A stretch of 41,621 bases of DNA, from contig CANRHZ010000014.1 in the NCBI GenBank assembly GCA_947630535.1, forward strand, positions 1 through 41,621, given 5' to 3'. Below the pieces are notes generated by a model, which saw nothing but the letters and a program-made list of their open reading frames with translations, did no database searches and had not been told where the DNA came from. The translations under genes were made by a program, and so were the position numbers. The stretch is from Candidatus Gastranaerophilales bacterium (lineage in GTDB: Bacteria > Cyanobacteriota > Vampirovibrionia > Gastranaerophilales > Gastranaerophilaceae). This document shows, piece after piece, positions 11,714 through 31,871 of the stretch. Within the stretch, counting starts at the first letter, position 1. The number at the start of each line of letters is the position of its first letter.

Positions 11714-12946
11714 ATGATTATACCAAGTATAGATTTAATGGACGGAAAAGCAGTCCAACTTAAACAAGGAAAAGAAAAAGTACTTGAAAGACAAGATGTA
11801 CTTGAGCTTGCTCAATATTATTCACGATTTGGAGAACTTGCGGTCGTTGACCTTGATGCTGCAATGAATAACGGCAAAGATAACGAAGAACTAATTTATA
11901 AAATATGTAAAGTTGCTAAATGCCGTGTCGGTGGCGGAATTAGAACCATTGAAAAAGCTAAAAGAATGATAGCTAACGGCGCCGATAAAATTATAATCGG
12001 AACCGCCGCAGATGAGAACTTTTTATCTAAACTCCCAAAAGATAGGGTTATGGTCGCAATAGATTCAAGAAACGGAAAAATCACTGTCGATGGGTGGCAA
12101 ACAGATACCGAAGTTTCAACACTTTCTCATGTTCAAAGGTTTGGGGATTTTTGCTCCGGGTTTTTATATACGATTGTTGAAAAAGAAGGCTTAATGCAAG
12201 GCACAAATTTAGATGCCTACAGGCAAATAAGAAGCATAACAAATAAACCCATAGTTGCAGCGGGCGGAATTACAACTCTAAATGAGATAAAAGAGCTTGA
12301 AAAAATGAACATATCTTCCCAGCTTGGAATGGCAATTTATACGGGCAAAATTAATCTTGAAGATGCTTTTATTACCTGTCTGGACTTTACAAAATCCAAA
12401 GACGGCCTTATTCCAACCGTTGTACAGGATTTATATACAAAACAGGTCTTAATGCTTGCTTATTCAAATAAAGAGTCGATTAAAAAGTCCCTATCGACGG
12501 GTAATGCCACATACTATAGCCGTTCAAGAAAACAACTCTGGACAAAAGGTGAAACATCCGGTAACACCCAAATTCTAAGAAGCGCTAAATTTGATTGTGA
12601 CGGGGACGCACTTTTGTATTATGTCGAACAAAAAGGTAATGCCTGCCATCTGAACAGATACAGTTGTTTTGAGGACAAAGAATTTGCGCTTGTTGATTTA
12701 TTCAGAGTAATAAAGGACAGAAAAATCAATCTGCCCGAAGGTTCATACACGACAAAACTTTTTAAAGACGAATTTTATTTAAAAAGAAAAATTATGGAAG
12801 AAGCGTTTGAAACGGTAAATTATGAACAGGGAGACGGCCTTGGATGGGAAGCATCCGACCTTTTATATCATCTTTTAGTCTTTATGGTTATGCATGATAT
12901 TACTCCAAAAGATTTAATTAACAATTTGGCTTCAAGGGCAAAATAA
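11714..12946 (+). CDS. HisA-HisI-HisE triple fusion (histidine biosynthesis)
   Basis: The 410-residue chain joins three enzymes. Residues 1-~230 are HisA (ProFAR isomerase): IPSIDLMDGK with Asp7, VGGGIR at 72-77, AIDSRNGKITVDGW with Asp117 and AAGGIT. Residues ~231-325 are HisI (phosphoribosyl-AMP cyclohydrolase): LMLAYSNKES, TYYSRSRKQLWTKGETSGN, and metal residues around DCDGDAL (294-300), Cys311 and Cys318. Residues ~327-410 are HisE (phosphoribosyl-ATP pyrophosphatase): KIMEEAFE and EASDLLYHLLVFM. These are steps 4, 3 and 2 of the pathway. AAGGAT precedes the ATG, and the stop codon overlaps the hisD start by one base. HisIE fusions are common; HisA-HisIE is unusual in my knowledge. Confidence 0.93.
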   Translation: MIIPSIDLMDGKAVQLKQGKEKVLERQDVLELAQYYSRFGELAVVDLDAAMNNGKDNEELIYKICKVAKCRVGGGIRTIEKAKRMIANGADKIIIGTAADENFLSKLPKDRVMVAIDSRNGKITVDGWQTDTEVSTLSHVQRFGDFCSGFLYTIVEKEGLMQGTNLDAYRQIRSITNKPIVAAGGITTLNEIKELEKMNISSQLGMAIYTGKINLEDAFITCLDFTKSKDGLIPTVVQDLYTKQVLMLAYSNKESIKKSLSTGNATYYSRSRKQLWTKGETSGNTQILRSAKFDCDGDALLYYVEQKGNACHLNRYSCFEDKEFALVDLFRVIKDRKINLPEGSYTTKLFKDEFYLKRKIMEEAFETVNYEQGDGLGWEASDLLYHLLVFMVMHDITPKDLINNLASRAK

Positions 12947-14211
12947 TGAGAATAGTACCTATCAATGAATTTGATAAATACAAAGATGAATTTTATTCGG
13001 TTATTGAATACGATAACAACCCTTCGGTTGATTCAATAATTAATGATGTAAAAACAAGAAAAGATGAAGCATTAATTGAATACTCTGCTAAATTTAATGA
13101 CGGCAACTTTAATTTGGCATCCGATTTTATTGTGAGCGAATATGAAATAGAAAATGCGTTTAAATCAACAGATAAAGAATTTATAAGCCAAATTAAAATT
13201 GCAAAAAAGAATATTGAAACATTTGCAAAAAAACAGTTAAATTCAATTAAAGACCTGAAATATAAAATAGAAGGCTCTATTATAGGACACAAAATATGCC
13301 CGCTAAACAGAATTCTATCTTATGTGCCGGGGGGGAATTATCCTCTGCCGAGTTCCGCTCTTATGACAACGGTACCTGCTAAGGTTGCGGGTGTAAAAGA
13401 AGTAATTTTAACATCCCCTAAAATAAAAAATGAAACCATAGTGGCAGCTAAAATTGCAGGAGCGGATAAAATATATAAACTTGGCGGTGCACAGGCAATA
13501 GCAGCTTTTTCATACGGAACCGAAAGTATACCCAAAGTTGATAAAATAGTAGGCCCCGGTAACAAATATGTAACGTATGCAAAAAAACATGTATATGGCA
13601 CGGTCGATATTGACTTTTTAGCGGGCCCATCTGAAGTTTTAATCATAGCGGATAAAAATGCTGACCCTAAATTAATTGCCGCAGATATGCTCGCACAATC
13701 GGAACACGATAAAGACGCAAGAGCCTACCTTCTTATTGACTCTATTTCTTTAGCCGAAGAAGTTGAAAATTATGCAAACAAATTTTTATCCGAATTAAAA
13801 ACCTCTGAAATTGCCAAAGTATCTTTTGAAAAATCTTTTGCAATTGTCGGGAATAATATTGATGAATTAATTGAAATTGCAAATAAAAGAGCACCCGAGC
13901 ACCTTGAACTTATGGTGAAAGATGAAAAAAAATATATAGACAAATTAAATAACTACGGTTCGCTTTTTATAGGCAAAAACTGCGCCGAAGTGTTTGGAGA
14001 TTACGCTTCGGGAACAAACCATGTGCTTCCTACCAATATGGCATCTAAATACACGGGCGGACTTTCGGTGTTTGATTTTATCAAAATTCTAACCTACCAG
14101 AAAATAAATTCAAAATATGCAAAAAAACTGAGTAAAACTTCATCTTATATAGCAAACTTTGAAGGACTTATGGCTCATAAACTGGCATCCGATTTAAGAA
14201 GGGAAATTTAA
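12946..14211 (+). CDS. hisD: histidinol dehydrogenase
   Basis: The 421-residue protein has the HisD landmarks RILSYVPGGNYPLPSSALMT, KIVGPGNKYVTYAKK, DFLAGPSEVL, ADMLAQSEHDKDARAYL, RAPEHLEL and a late FGDYASGTNHVLPT, which includes zinc and catalytic His residues. It oxidises L-histidinol to histidine with 2 NAD+ in the last two steps of the pathway. It is joined to the HisA-HisIE gene by a TAATG overlap and to the next gene in the same way, so the genes are translationally coupled. Confidence 0.95.
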   Translation: MRIVPINEFDKYKDEFYSVIEYDNNPSVDSIINDVKTRKDEALIEYSAKFNDGNFNLASDFIVSEYEIENAFKSTDKEFISQIKIAKKNIETFAKKQLNSIKDLKYKIEGSIIGHKICPLNRILSYVPGGNYPLPSSALMTTVPAKVAGVKEVILTSPKIKNETIVAAKIAGADKIYKLGGAQAIAAFSYGTESIPKVDKIVGPGNKYVTYAKKHVYGTVDIDFLAGPSEVLIIADKNADPKLIAADMLAQSEHDKDARAYLLIDSISLAEEVENYANKFLSELKTSEIAKVSFEKSFAIVGNNIDELIEIANKRAPEHLELMVKDEKKYIDKLNNYGSLFIGKNCAEVFGDYASGTNHVLPTNMASKYTGGLSVFDFIKILTYQKINSKYAKKLSKTSSYIANFEGLMAHKLASDLRREI

Positions 14212-14849
14212 TGAACAAAAAATCCTTTAAAACACTCCTGCTTGCTAAATTATGCACACTATATTTTCAGTTTAAAAGACATTTTTATTATTGCAAAAAC
14301 ATTAATTACCCAAAATCCCAATGTATTTTTGCTCTCTGGCATGCTCACCAGTGCGGACTGTATGCGCTTGAAGAGAGAGAAAAAACCACGGTTATGATAT
14401 CACGTTCAAATGACGGCGAGATTATTGCACAGGCAGGAAGCGCAATGGGTTTAAATGTTGTGAGAGGCTCTCAAAGAAGAATGGGCGCTACGGCCGCACT
14501 TGAGCTAATTGATGCAATCAAAAACGGCAACAATGGCGCTCTTACAATTGATGGCCCAAGGGGCCCAAACAGAATTGTAAAAAAAGGAATAGTTGAAATA
14601 GCCAAAATTACGGGTGTTCCCATAGTGCCTATGAGCTGGTATTCGCCTTCAAAATTTATGCTCAAATTAAAAACATGGGATGAATTCAGATTTCCTCTTA
14701 ACTGTATAAAAATGAAAGCGCTCTACGGAGAGCCAATCTATGTGCCTGAAGATGCCACGGATGACGATATTGAATTTTACAGAAAAAAGGTAGAGGATGA
14801 ATTAAACAGGCTCTATGATACTCTTAAAACCAATTTTAAAAAGTTGTAA
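14211..14849 (+). CDS. DUF374 lysophospholipid acyltransferase-like protein
   Basis: The 212-residue protein carries FALWHAHQCGL, ISRSNDGEIIA, GSQRRMGATAAL and TIDGPRGPNRIVKKGIVEIAKITGVPIVPMSW, which define the DUF374 branch of the acyltransferase superfamily. It probably transfers an acyl chain to a lipid, possibly to the lipid anchor of a surface glycolipid; the acceptor is not known. It is the last gene of the operon, starts in a TAATG overlap with hisD, and ends 4 bases from the convergent ftsH. Confidence 0.88.
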   Translation: MNKKSFKTLLLAKLCTLYFQFKRHFYYCKNINYPKSQCIFALWHAHQCGLYALEEREKTTVMISRSNDGEIIAQAGSAMGLNVVRGSQRRMGATAALELIDAIKNGNNGALTIDGPRGPNRIVKKGIVEIAKITGVPIVPMSWYSPSKFMLKLKTWDEFRFPLNCIKMKALYGEPIYVPEDATDDDIEFYRKKVEDELNRLYDTLKTNFKKL

Positions 14850-16843: not shown

Positions 16844-17358
16844 TTGTCAGTTGCATTCTTATCACTAGGCTCAAATCACGGTGACAGATTATCCGTTATT
16901 CAACAGGCGGTAAATTTTTTAAGCAACGATAATTCTATAGAAGTTAGAGCGGCTTCATCTTTTTATGAAACAGAACCGTGGGGCAAAAAAATCAACCTTG
17001 GTTTGTAAATGCCGTTATAGCAGTAAGAACAAATCTTTCCCCAATAGAACTTTTAAGAGTTTGTCAGGATATTGAAGCAAGGCTTGGCCGAAACAGGAAT
17101 AAGGAAGAAAAGTGGGGTGAAAGACCGATAGATATTGATATTCTTTTTTACGATAACCTTGTTTTTTCTAATGAAATACTGACTATCCCGCACCCTTATG
17201 TACATAAAAGAGCATTTGCGCTTGTTCCTATGCTTGAAATTCAACAAAGTTACGTTCATCCCGTTTTAAATAAAAATATTTTAGAGCTCCATGAAGAACT
17301 TGAGGACCCCGAAGATGTCTTTTTGTACGGCACAATTTCAGGTTCAAGGCTTGAATAA
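16844..17358 (+). pseudogene. folK: folK (HPPK, folate synthesis) split by a frameshift at an A7 run
   Basis: The first part, from a TTG at 16844 with GAGG upstream, reads SVAFLSLGSNHGDR...SSFYETEPWG and stops at 17008. The second part, in the -1 frame, reads KNQPWFVNAVIAV...RNRNKEEKWGERPIDIDILFYDN to 17358. Joined at the A7 run (16985-16991) they give a complete 2-amino-4-hydroxy-6-hydroxymethyldihydropteridine pyrophosphokinase of about 171 residues with the family GSN, EPWG/QPWFVN and RPIDIDI motifs. One missing A explains the break. It could be a sequencing error, a real null mutation, or be rescued by slippage. The stop overlaps the next gene's ATG. Confidence 0.85.
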
Positions 17359-22784: not shown

Positions 22785-23870
22785 ATGAAAAAAGCTCTTA
22801 TAACAGGTATTACGGGTCAAGACGGAAGCTATCTGGCGGAATTTTTGCTTGAAAAAGGGTATGAAGTCCACGGCATGAAAAGAAGGGCATCTTCTTTTAA
22901 CACGGCAAGAATAGACCACCTTTATCAGGATATTCACCATGAGGGAAATTTTAAACTCCACTACGGTGACCTTTCGGATTCATCAAACCTTATAAGGCTT
23001 GTTTGCGAAATTGAACCTGATGAAATATACAACCTTGCCGCACAATCCCATGTTAAAGTTTCCTGGGATTGCCCCGAATATACGGCGGATTGTGATGCAC
23101 TGGGCACTCTAAGGCTTCTTGAAGCAATAAGAATGAACGGTTTTGAGAAAAAAACCAAATTCTATCAGGCTTCAACATCTGAACTCTACGGGCTTATACA
23201 AGAACCCATTCAAAATGAAAAAACACCTTTTTATCCAAGAAGCCCCTATGCGGTTGCAAAACTTTATGCCTATTGGATATGCGTAAACTATAGAGAAAGC
23301 TTTAATATGTTTGCATCAAACGGGATTTTATTCAACCATGAATCCCCGAGGCGTGGTGAAACCTTTGTTACAAGAAAAATTACAATGGCGGCAACCAAAA
23401 TTAAAATGGGTTTGCAGGATAAATTATATTTAGGAAACCTCTCTGCAAAAAGGGACTGGGGTCATGCAAAAGATTACGTAGAAGGCATGTGGAAAATTCT
23501 TCAACAGGATAAGCCCTCTGATTATGTACTTGCAACGGGAATTACAACCTCTATCAGAGATTTTTGCAAAATGACATTTAATGAGCTTGGAATTGAGCTT
23601 GAATTTGTAGGAAGCGGAGCAGATGAAAAAGGGGTGGATAAAAAAACGGGAAATGTGTTAATTGAAGTTGACCCGAGGTACTTTAGACCCGCAGAAGTTG
23701 ATTTACTATTGGGCGATAGTGCAAAAGCAAGAAAAGAACTCAATTGGGAGCCAAAATACAATCTTAAATCCTTGATAAAAGAAATGGTAAAAGAGGACCT
23801 TAAACTTGCAAAGAAAGAAAAAACTCTAAAAAGCCACGGGTATGAAGTATTAATTCCGCAGGAAGGATAA
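22785..23870 (+). CDS. gmd: GDP-mannose 4,6-dehydratase
   Basis: The 361-residue SDR enzyme begins with [40 protein letters not shown], covering the NADP site and the Arg-rich loop typical of Gmd. The catalytic STSELYG and YAVAK motifs follow, then [17 protein letters not shown] and [20 protein letters not shown]. It converts GDP-D-mannose to GDP-4-keto-6-deoxymannose. Strong ribosome site GGGGGGA. The fcl gene follows after a single base, so the two form the standard GDP-L-fucose pathway. Confidence 0.96.
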
Positions 23871-23871
23871 A

Positions 23872-24825
23872 ATGGACGAAAAAATATTTGTTGCAGGCCA
23901 TAAAGGGCTTGTTGGAAGCGCAATTAAAAGAGAGCTTGAAGAAAGAGGATACAAAAATTTAATATGTAAATCTCATAGCGAACTTGATTTAGAGGACGCA
24001 AATTCGGTTACAAAATTTTTTGATGAATATAAGCCCGATTATGTTATACTTTCCGCCGCAAAAGTCGGGGGAATACTCGGGAATAATTCTTATCCTGTTG
24101 AATTTTTTGTTAAAAATATGAAAATTCAATTGAATGTAATTGAAAATGCCTACAGAACAAACGTTAAAAAATTGATATTCTTGGGTTCAAGCTGCATTTA
24201 CCCAAAATCAGCGCCCCAACCTCTAAAAGAAGAATACCTTTTGGATGGTAAACTGGAAAAAACTAATGAGATGTATGCTCTTGCAAAAATATCGGGTCTA
24301 AAGCTTTGCGGGGCATATAACAGAGAGTATAATACAAACTATATATCCGTTATGCCTTGTAACCTATACGGACTAAACGATAACTATGACAGTCAAAATG
24401 CCCATGTACTTCCAATGCTTATAAGAAGGTTCCACGAGGCAAAAATAAACAATCAAAAAGAAGTTACAGTCTGGGGCACTGGAAAACCCTTAAGAGAATT
24501 TATGTTCGCAGGCGACCTTGCAAAATGCATAGTGTTTTTATTGGAAAATAAAAATGCAAGTGATATAGGCGAATTCATTAATATTGGAACGGGAGAGGAA
24601 GTCACCATTTTTGAACTTGCAAACATTATAAAAGATGTTGTAGGTTTTATGGGAGATATTACTTTTGATAATACAAAACCTGATGGAACATATAGAAAAG
24701 TTATGGACGTATCAAAAATAAAATCCTTAGGCTGGAGCGCAAAAACCCCTCTAAAAGAAGGAATTAAAATAGTATACCAAGACTTTTTAGAAAATAAAAA
24801 TATAAGGAAAAATCCCATAAACTAA
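23872..24825 (+). CDS. fcl: GDP-L-fucose synthase
   Basis: The 317-residue epimerase/reductase starts IFVAGHKGLVGSAI (NADP site). It contains LSAAKVGGILGNN, FLGSSCIYPK, the YALAKISG catalytic pair and the PCNLYGLNDNYD motif. It makes GDP-L-fucose from the Gmd product. AAGGAT at the end of gmd serves as its ribosome site. Its stop codon overlaps the start of the fucosyltransferase gene (TAATG), so donor synthesis and transfer are encoded in one transcript. Confidence 0.96.
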   Translation: MDEKIFVAGHKGLVGSAIKRELEERGYKNLICKSHSELDLEDANSVTKFFDEYKPDYVILSAAKVGGILGNNSYPVEFFVKNMKIQLNVIENAYRTNVKKLIFLGSSCIYPKSAPQPLKEEYLLDGKLEKTNEMYALAKISGLKLCGAYNREYNTNYISVMPCNLYGLNDNYDSQNAHVLPMLIRRFHEAKINNQKEVTVWGTGKPLREFMFAGDLAKCIVFLLENKNASDIGEFINIGTGEEVTIFELANIIKDVVGFMGDITFDNTKPDGTYRKVMDVSKIKSLGWSAKTPLKEGIKIVYQDFLENKNIRKNPIN

Positions 24826-25847
24826 TGAAAATTTTTGAAAAATTAAAAAAGAACATACTAAAATTTTTTCCCCCGTATAAAACTTGGGGGGGGGGGGGAT
24901 TGAAAATTGTAAATTTGCAAGGCGGACTTGGGAATCAGATGTTTGAATATGCCTTTGCAAAAGCCATAAGCAATAAAATGGGGATAAAAATTTTATTTGA
25001 TAAAACTTGGTTTGATATACAGGACACCAGCAACAAAATAAGCCCAAGAAGGGAACTTTTGCTTGATAAAATTTTTAATCTAAAACTTGACTATGCAACA
25101 GATACGCAAATAAAAATAGCAAAAGGTAAAGTTATATTCAGGAAATTTTTTCGGGATATATTTAAAATAAGAAACAAATACTCCGGCGAAATTACCATAA
25201 ACTATTCTACAAGAAGCAATAAAAGGCTTTATCAAAAAATTAAGAATAAAAGATATATAGGAGGGTACTTTCAAAACTCCGGATACTTTGAAGATATAAA
25301 AGAGCTTTTAATAAACGATTTTAAATTCCCAACGGATAAATTAAACGAAAATAATCTTGAATTATTAAAAGAGATTAAAGAGTGCAAAAATTCCGTATTT
25401 ATACATATAAGAAGGGGGGATTTTTTAAAGTATGATAAATGGGCACTTGATAATTCTTACTATCAAAATGCCATTAAATATATAAAAGATAATGTTGAAA
25501 ATCCAAAATTTTTTATTCTTGGCGAATTTGAATGCGGCTTTTTAGAGAATAATTTTAATATGGATACCAATTATAAAGTTATAAAAAATCAAAATAATGA
25601 CCCGTATTTTGATTGGGTCGATATGTATCTTATGACCCAATTTGCTCACGGGATAGCATCAAATTCAACATTTTGTTTCTGGGGAGCGTATTTAAATCAA
25701 AACAAAGATAAAATCATTGTGTGTCCTGATGTTTACCCCGTTAATAACACAAAGGTTCCATGCAAAAATTGGGTCAAAATTAAGACAGGTTTATTAACTG
25801 AAAATACGGAAGTTTTAACTCTGAGGAATACAAAAATCAGTCTTTAG
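24825..25847 (+). CDS. GT11 alpha-1,2-fucosyltransferase with an in-frame poly-G tract
   Basis: The family core begins LKIVNLQGGLGNQMFEYAFAKAI at residue 26 and contains VFIHIRRGDFLKYD (the HxRRGD GDP-fucose motif), GYFQNSGYF and a later GIASNSTFCFWGAYL. It transfers L-fucose from GDP-fucose to a surface glycan in the cytosol. Ahead of the core lies a 25-residue extension starting at the ATG that overlaps the fcl stop. Thirteen consecutive G within it encode WGGGG. In the present sequence the frame is open. Losing one G gives GAT-TGA at once; gaining one G gives a stop after 15 codons, so the gene looks phase-variable. TTG at 24900 is a possible internal start. Confidence 0.92.
   Translation: MKIFEKLKKNILKFFPPYKTWGGGGLKIVNLQGGLGNQMFEYAFAKAISNKMGIKILFDKTWFDIQDTSNKISPRRELLLDKIFNLKLDYATDTQIKIAKGKVIFRKFFRDIFKIRNKYSGEITINYSTRSNKRLYQKIKNKRYIGGYFQNSGYFEDIKELLINDFKFPTDKLNENNLELLKEIKECKNSVFIHIRRGDFLKYDKWALDNSYYQNAIKYIKDNVENPKFFILGEFECGFLENNFNMDTNYKVIKNQNNDPYFDWVDMYLMTQFAHGIASNSTFCFWGAYLNQNKDKIIVCPDVYPVNNTKVPCKNWVKIKTGLLTENTEVLTLRNTKISL
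24886..24898 (+). repeat. homopolymer run of 13 G (putative slipped-strand contingency tract)
   Basis: Thirteen G in a row interrupt an otherwise AT-rich region. No other G or C run that I noticed in the window exceeds seven. A preceding C5 (24870-24874) could pair with part of it. The tract lies within the coding sequence of the fucosyltransferase. Confidence 0.95.
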
Positions 25848-29947: not shown

Positions 29948-30745
29948 ATGAGGTTTAGTTTAGCAATCATATTTTTATTTTTTATTTTAATGCCTGTCCA
30001 TTCTCAAACAATATCGGGAAACGTAAGACAGGATGAAGTTTTAAATAAAAAAAGCATCGTAATAGATTCAAACACGCAAAAGCCCATTAAGGGCGCTAAA
30101 ATATATATGCCAAACTATAACTTTAATACAACAACCGATAGTAACGGCAGTTTTCAGTTAAACGCACAAATTGAGGATAGGGCAATTCTTCAAATTGAAA
30201 AAGAAGGGTACCGCCCGTTTTCAATTACGGTTGATAAATCAATTACAACAAGACCCCTTAAACTCGGCATTCAAAAATTAAACTCATCAGATGTTTATAC
30301 GGAAGCGGGAGTATTTCATCTGGGGGATGATGTTTATTCGGAAAATTCCGCAAACTGTATGCAGTTTAGGGCAAAACCCATTGGAGCGTACTATTCAAAA
30401 GAAGTAAGTCTGAAAGGATATAATAGCTCAAAAGAGGCGGTTATTGTGTTTGGCTCCGTTATAGGGCTTGATACCAAGCTTGCAAAGGAACTCGGGCAAA
30501 ATTCAATAGTAAGTGTTTATTCTTCGCCCGTAGAAATTATATTTAACGGACAAAAAATCGGAGAGTTAAATATGAACGGAGACAATCAACAAATAGTAAT
30601 CCCTAGCATGTTAATTAAAGAAAAAAATCAGCTTACGGTAAAAACAGGGAAAAATATATTCCAGCACAACTACACAGACTATGACGATATGGAATTTGCA
30701 AACCTTAGAATAGAGCTTAGAGATAAGGTTTTTGCGAATAAATAG
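29948..30745 (+). CDS. secreted protein with a carboxypeptidase-regulatory-like beta domain
   Basis: The 265-residue product has a signal peptide (MRFSLAIIFLFFILMPVHSQ). A CarboxypepD_reg-like beta-sandwich follows, with VIDSNTQKPIKGAKIYMP, TTTDSNGSFQLNAQ and LQIEKEGYRPFSITVD (about residues 35-95). The C-terminal half is a beta-rich region without a known motif. The domain usually mediates binding or stability in envelope proteins. It should be periplasmic or on the cell surface. Its last 29 bases overlap the 3' end of folP on the other strand. Confidence 0.75.
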   Translation: MRFSLAIIFLFFILMPVHSQTISGNVRQDEVLNKKSIVIDSNTQKPIKGAKIYMPNYNFNTTTDSNGSFQLNAQIEDRAILQIEKEGYRPFSITVDKSITTRPLKLGIQKLNSSDVYTEAGVFHLGDDVYSENSANCMQFRAKPIGAYYSKEVSLKGYNSSKEAVIVFGSVIGLDTKLAKELGQNSIVSVYSSPVEIIFNGQKIGELNMNGDNQQIVIPSMLIKEKNQLTVKTGKNIFQHNYTDYDDMEFANLRIELRDKVFANK

Positions 30746-31871
30746 CGTTATAAAAATCCAGTGCTAATTTTGTTTTAGCAACATTATGTACCCTTATATA
30801 ATCAACTCCCGATTGAATTAAATAAAAGCTTGAAAGCATTGTAATATCATCCAACATATTATTATCGGACGTATTAACCAAACTTTTTAAAAACCTTTTT
30901 CTTGAGGTACCTGCCATCATTTTAAACCCGAGAGATTTAAATTCTTTAATTTTTTCCAAAAGCTTAAAATTTTGTTCGATATTTTTTGCAAAGCCAAAAC
31001 CGACATCCAAAATAATATTATCTCTGTTTATTTCTGAATTTGAAATTCTATTTAATAATTCATTGTATACATCATCTTCTATTTGGTTATAATCGCATAA
31101 ATTATCCATATCGGATGGAAGGCCCCTTGAATGGGTAATTACAATTTTAGAATTATATTCTTTTATGATTTTTTCCATATCTTTATCGTATTTGAGCCCC
31201 GATACATCATTTATTATGTCTGCTCCAAGTTCAATAGCCGACTTTGCAACAAGAGAACTTCTTGTATCAACGGAAATAACTATATTTGTTTTTTTTAATT
31301 CGCAAATAACGGGCTTAAGCTTTTTTATTTCATCTTCTGGGGATATTTCAGAAGAATTGGGGTTTGTGGCGGCAGCTCCTATATCAATTATATCGGCACC
31401 CGTATCAATCATATTATGAGCATAAAAAATGGCATCATCCATATTTTTATACTTATTGCCATCAGAAAATGAATCTTTGCTTAAGTTTAAAATTCCGACT
31501 ATTTTAACTTCGTTTTTTTTATAATAAAGATTAATTTGCTCCTCAATTAAATCAGAGATTAAAGGTAAATTAAAGGGCTGATTTTTAAGGTTTTTAGAAA
31601 TTTCTTTAAGTTGTTTTATACTTCCCGATAAAATTAAATCCGATTTATCAATTGTGTTTGTTAAAACATTTTTATTAATAGCAGCATCAGTACCCATTGA
31701 TAGTGCGGTTTGTTTTATAATAGTTGCCATGGGGCAAGTTAAATTATAAATTTTGAGCACTAAAAAGTTATGCTTATTTGCCGCATATTTTATATAGTTT
31801 GTATCAAAACCTATTTTATCTAACTCGTCAATTGGGTTAATATCATGGATGGTTTTTATGTAAAATTGCAT
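30717..31871 (-). CDS. folP: dihydropteroate synthase with N-terminal extension
   Basis: The 384-residue protein has the DHPS barrel from about residue 120. Motifs are VGILNLSKDSFSDGNKY (pterin/phosphate loop), DTGADIIDIGAAATNP, ISVDTRSS, ADIINDVSG, DVGFGFAKN and GTSRKRFL. It condenses DHPPP with p-aminobenzoate in folate synthesis, directly after FolK. The first ~115 residues form an extra domain with CPMATIIKQTALSMGTDAAINK, seen in some other DHPS proteins; its role is not known to me. It overlaps the secreted-protein gene tail-to-tail by 29 bases. Confidence 0.9.
   Translation of the reverse strand: MQFYIKTIHDINPIDELDKIGFDTNYIKYAANKHNFLVLKIYNLTCPMATIIKQTALSMGTDAAINKNVLTNTIDKSDLILSGSIKQLKEISKNLKNQPFNLPLISDLIEEQINLYYKKNEVKIVGILNLSKDSFSDGNKYKNMDDAIFYAHNMIDTGADIIDIGAAATNPNSSEISPEDEIKKLKPVICELKKTNIVISVDTRSSLVAKSAIELGADIINDVSGLKYDKDMEKIIKEYNSKIVITHSRGLPSDMDNLCDYNQIEDDVYNELLNRISNSEINRDNIILDVGFGFAKNIEQNFKLLEKIKEFKSLGFKMMAGTSRKRFLKSLVNTSDNNMLDDITMLSSFYLIQSGVDYIRVHNVAKTKLALDFYNAIYSQKPYL

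Follow-up and report, generated by a model that had tools for sequence, protein, structure and literature searches.

A split folK gene in a Gastranaerophilales genome is best explained by an isolated one-base contraction of an inherited A run

Introduction

Does a folK gene that falls into two reading frames on either side of seven consecutive A reveal a recoding event, a gene that has just been lost, or a missing base in the sequence itself? The question is raised by a contig from a Candidatus Gastranaerophilales bacterium, designated C14 and analysed here in its entirety as the window (41,621 bases), which belongs to a genome of 1.85 Mb in 72 contigs, 98.5% complete and with about 33% G+C. 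Based on the sequence alone, the original prediction considered the two pieces of folK as well conserved and joining at the A run into a normal HPPK, and put forward that slippage of the RNA polymerase or of the ribosome could restore the frame.

The folK locus

The run comprises exactly seven A when the sequence is read directly, with GGGGC on its 5' side and TCAACC on its 3' side (Table 1). The upstream frame, whose TTG start is positioned as the start in relatives, matches PF01288 at 35.8 bits over positions 1-42. It codes for the N-terminal third of HPPK, down to YETEPWGKK, followed by a short out-of-frame tail, INLGL. The downstream frame matches positions 42-115 of the same family (94.3 bits) and encodes the remainder of the protein, from the stretch around NQPWFVNAV to the end. 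A full-length HPPK match is obtained solely with both frames joined at the run, namely TIGR01498 (folK) at 141 bits over positions 1-127 of 128. The joined protein is alignable to solved HPPKs along the domain and displays the LGSN start as well as the RPIDIDIL and PHPxxHKRAF stretches typical of TIGR01498/PF01288 members, but differs from them in being encoded as two halves in two frames. Both the split at the run and the normal HPPK obtained by joining the pieces are thus confirmed. Regarding a possible second folK, which the original prediction would have counted against itself if accompanied by a truncated product alone, the whole-genome search returned no other HPPK-family gene and folK is present as a single copy.

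Table 1. Location of the folK frames, the A run and the folate genes considered; positions refer to the window unless another contig is named
Feature	Location	Strand	Remarks
folK upstream frame	16844..17008	+	TTG start at 16844, stop at 17006-17008; 54 codons plus stop
folK downstream (-1) frame	16969..17358	+	Open from 16969, stop at 17356-17358; first start codon GTG at 16978
A7 run, point of frame loss in folK	16985..16991	+	Homologous site is A8 in four same-genus species
folP (dihydropteroate synthase)	30717..31871	-	Intact; uses the folK product; TIGR01496 DHPS 258.5 bits, above cut-off
folE2	C5:42952-43722		Found in the genome
PTPS/QueD-family protein with CENMHGH motif	C55:5130-5477		Found in the genome

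The run in relatives and across the family

In all seven same-genus species having folK, the gene lies in a single open frame; G003, from the same genus and 85% complete, gave no folK match. The homologous site is A8 in G001, G004, G005 and G007, where it reads GGC or GGT, AAA AAA, then AAC or AAT. The state closest in ancestry to this genome, which lacks one A, is thus likely to be A8. Elsewhere in the genus, G006 carries seven A within GGA AAA AAA GAC and remains in frame, and the site is A6 in G002 and A3 in G008. The longest A run at this site thus ranges from 3 to 8 within the genus, i.e. the protein is conserved and the run itself is not. The comparison of orthologs for A7 against A8, suggested at the outset, therefore gives A8 in four species. 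No match to the exact A7 junction appeared in the public genomes searched, a set that may omit the source genome. When proteins were used to look for another genome of this species, other species alone came up, at no more than 82% amino-acid identity, the nearest public ones being metagenome-assembled genomes of Candidatus Gastranaerophilales.

At the family level, HPPK was matched in 362 of the 383 genomes searched, and in 282 of the 289 that are at least 90% complete. No other frame split of folK occurs among the family matches listed, single full-length matches among the 362 HPPK genes being deduced from the tally and the E-values. Four other family genomes have two HPPK matches, corresponding to an extra match on another contig or to a gene cut by a contig end. 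The split folK of G131, the one genome of these four that lacks a full copy, was rejected as a frame split, since its pieces lie on different contigs and one of them begins at base 1, which indicates a contig break. The split is unique to this genome among those examined.

Conservation on both sides of the split

Compared with genus relatives, the downstream part of folK shows 77-85% amino-acid identity, with dN of 0.12-0.18 and dS above 1, values in the same range as between intact relatives. Such conservation indicates that the gene has not spent a long period without function and is not an old pseudogene, bearing in mind that the dN/dS comparison is insensitive to recent pseudogene formation. 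There is no decay on either side of the split, and the conservation originally attributed to both pieces holds.

Origin of the missing base

Taken as a whole, the split is very probably an isolated, non-programmed contraction of an inherited homopolymer by one base, from A8 to A7, explained by either an error in the consensus or an indel of very recent date. By our own estimate, an error in base calling or in the consensus of this metagenome-assembled contig would be somewhat the likelier origin, and an indel produced very recently by replication slippage in the strain sampled would be a serious contender whose chance falls a little short of even. In the case of a real indel, little HPPK would be produced except through accidental, low-level slippage of the RNA polymerase or the ribosome at the run. 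Antonov et al. (2013; PMC3711429) anticipate that most homology-validated frameshifts occurring as singletons are due to sequencing error. The present case resembles these singletons in being confined to a single species, in its homopolymer site and in a join backed by Pfam and homology; presenting no notable difference from them, folK is a case of the kind expected from sequencing errors and recent indels.

The remainder of the genome gives some measure of the sequence quality. About 840 kb were compared with stretches of same-genus relatives, yielding about 212 comparable gene places (228 kb), and folK is the sole convincing frameshift among them; the reverse search found none in the same-genus relatives. 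The lack of any other frameshift in the sampled genes indicates a generally good assembly and makes a consensus error at folK no foregone conclusion. A second candidate, in L105 (12352-12659), was rejected on reading the sequence, which suggests a spurious ORF lying antisense at the beginning of a ParA/MinD-type gene. A third, between hisD and an acyltransferase gene, was rejected as a gene fusion in two relatives. In the window, hisD and the next gene, which is lysophospholipid-acyltransferase-like, occupy 12946-14849 (+) and share one base (TAATG); in the same-genus G001 (L062) and G006 (L070), hisD and the acyltransferase-like gene form one continuous frame of 644 codons.

Possible slippage at the A7 run

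Two further readings, namely the leaky bypass of a real A7 allele and the recent loss of folK, are sub-cases of the real-indel branch of the contraction described above, and the confidence granted to each overlaps with that granted to the latter. According to the first, which is rather unlikely, the A7 allele would be real and accidentally bypassed, either by the polymerase adding an A or by a lysyl-tRNA slipping back one base at A_AAA, in a minor fraction of transcripts or ribosomes, and would yield enough HPPK for growth. Consistent with such a rescue, HPPK is single copy, both of its halves are conserved, folP is kept and no PF12822 match was found. In E. coli, moreover, the deletion of an A in an A8 run is partly bypassed, enough to give a functional protein (PMC3812077), and insertion by the RNA polymerase at A7 in one gene reaches 0.39%, as determined by sequencing (PMC6260861). 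Against it, slippage by the E. coli RNA polymerase in a reporter is reported to need no fewer than 7 consecutive T, or a still longer run of A (PMC6260861), high-efficiency transcription slippage has been reported at about 9 A/T and longer (PMC5009743), and a genome-wide survey found no frame restored by any transcription error (PMC5574713). With seven A, the folK run stays under the length of about 9 A/T of productive transcription slippage sites of the dnaX or endosymbiont type. In the open conserved segments of this genome, coding-strand runs amount to 248 A7, 55 A8 and one A9. Such abundance indicates that A7 is evidently tolerated and is no special signal, and strong slippage at 248 such runs would be costly.

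The closest known parallel is the rescue by transcription slippage at poly(A) tracts in Buchnera and Blochmannia, which likewise involves an A+T-rich genome and a frameshift at an A run in a gene that is conserved in other respects (PMC5009743). However, the endosymbiont tracts are long, with 12-50% corrected transcripts (PMC5009743), against only seven A here, and the present genome is of about 33% G+C and 1.85 Mb with one such gene in about 212.

Regarding the ribosome, the zero frame at the run is GGC_AAA_AAA_ATC, and the canonical slippery heptamer X_XXZ_ZZN is absent, the zero-frame heptamer being C_AAA_AAA. The only -1 shift motif at the run is the weak tetramer A_AAA, of the form Z_ZZN, and tetramers of the A_AA.A type barely shift in E. 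coli without a pseudoknot or strong stimulator (PMC4066793). The fold of the 80 nt following the run has a z-score of -0.61, a stability also reached by 51 of 200 shuffled sequences. Shine-Dalgarno stimulators of -1 frameshifting typically lie some 10-14 nt from the slippery site. By eye, no Shine-Dalgarno sequence occurs at the usual stimulator spacing upstream of the run, the GGGG being one base before it. A frame transition conserved across species is likewise absent, the genus relatives having one frame. On these grounds, an accidental, leaky rescue of folK would be feasible in physical terms, and nothing points to a programmed signal. As for the slippage that the original prediction put forward, its use by folK as a mechanism is not supported, given a split found in no other species examined, a run that is not conserved, the lack of a canonical -1 heptamer, ordinary downstream structure, and the frequency of A7 and A8 in intact genes of the same genome.

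Folate synthesis and the fate of folK

According to the second of these readings, an equally unlikely one, the A7 allele would be real and folK recently killed, folate or pterin intermediates being obtained by another route or HPPK activity being supplied by an unrelated enzyme. The family offers some ground for it: HPPK was undetected in seven genomes at least 90% complete (G065, G097, G105, G159, G265, G358 and G227), and all seven keep folP, which suggests that life without canonical folK may be possible in the family. Among them, G105 consists of about 10 contigs and is 99% complete. The HPPK-less genomes could harbour an unrelated HPPK or reflect real loss, but could also result from assembly gaps.

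The pathway around folK nevertheless looks kept in this genome, with folP, folE2 and a PTPS/QueD-family gene present and intact (Table 1), and folK itself bears no sign of decay. Neither folE (GTP cyclohydrolase I, PF01227) nor folB (PF02152) was found in this genome. Reading this as pathway loss was rejected, folE being missing in all 12 genomes searched and folE2 being present here. PTPS-family proteins with a Glu in a CENMHGH-type motif can stand in for FolB. In this genome, folE2 and the CENMHGH-motif protein might offer another way into folate synthesis. No match to PF12822, an ECF-type transporter component and possible means of folate import, was found in this genome, which together with intact folP, folE2 and the PTPS/QueD-family gene speaks in favour of a folate pathway intended to function. 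The view that its loss would be surprising is hence only partly sustained: folP is indeed intact elsewhere in the window and the pathway genes are kept, but seven high-quality family genomes are without HPPK and yet with folP.

Programmed frameshifting, an improbable reading, and significance

Programmed frameshifting, in which the A run would be a selected recoding site setting the HPPK level, is extremely improbable, having in its favour solely that the frames meet at an A run and differ by exactly one base, against a split seen in no other species examined among the matches listed, a longest run varying from 3 to 8 even inside the genus, a C_AAA_AAA that is not X_XXZ_ZZN, a GGGG one base off the run and a structure z-score of -0.6. 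The A7 itself belongs to the sequence provided, but a recoding feature at folK finds no support.

It is also very doubtful that A7 is both real and fixed in the species, with the sole HPPK made by low-level slippage on seven A. Were it so, a gut bacterium would depend on decoding errors for a key enzyme of its folate synthesis, a modest example of slippage sustaining such an enzyme, with an A run shorter than in the endosymbiont cases. With the one-base contraction as the preferred explanation, the main lesson is one of caution: a homopolymer that differs by one base in just one metagenome-assembled genome is no evidence of recoding.

Another feature of the window

Further along the window, at 22785-25847 (+), genes for a GDP-mannose 4,6-dehydratase, an NAD-dependent epimerase and a family 11 glycosyltransferase stand in a row, an arrangement that suggests GDP-fucose synthesis associated with a putative fucosyltransferase.
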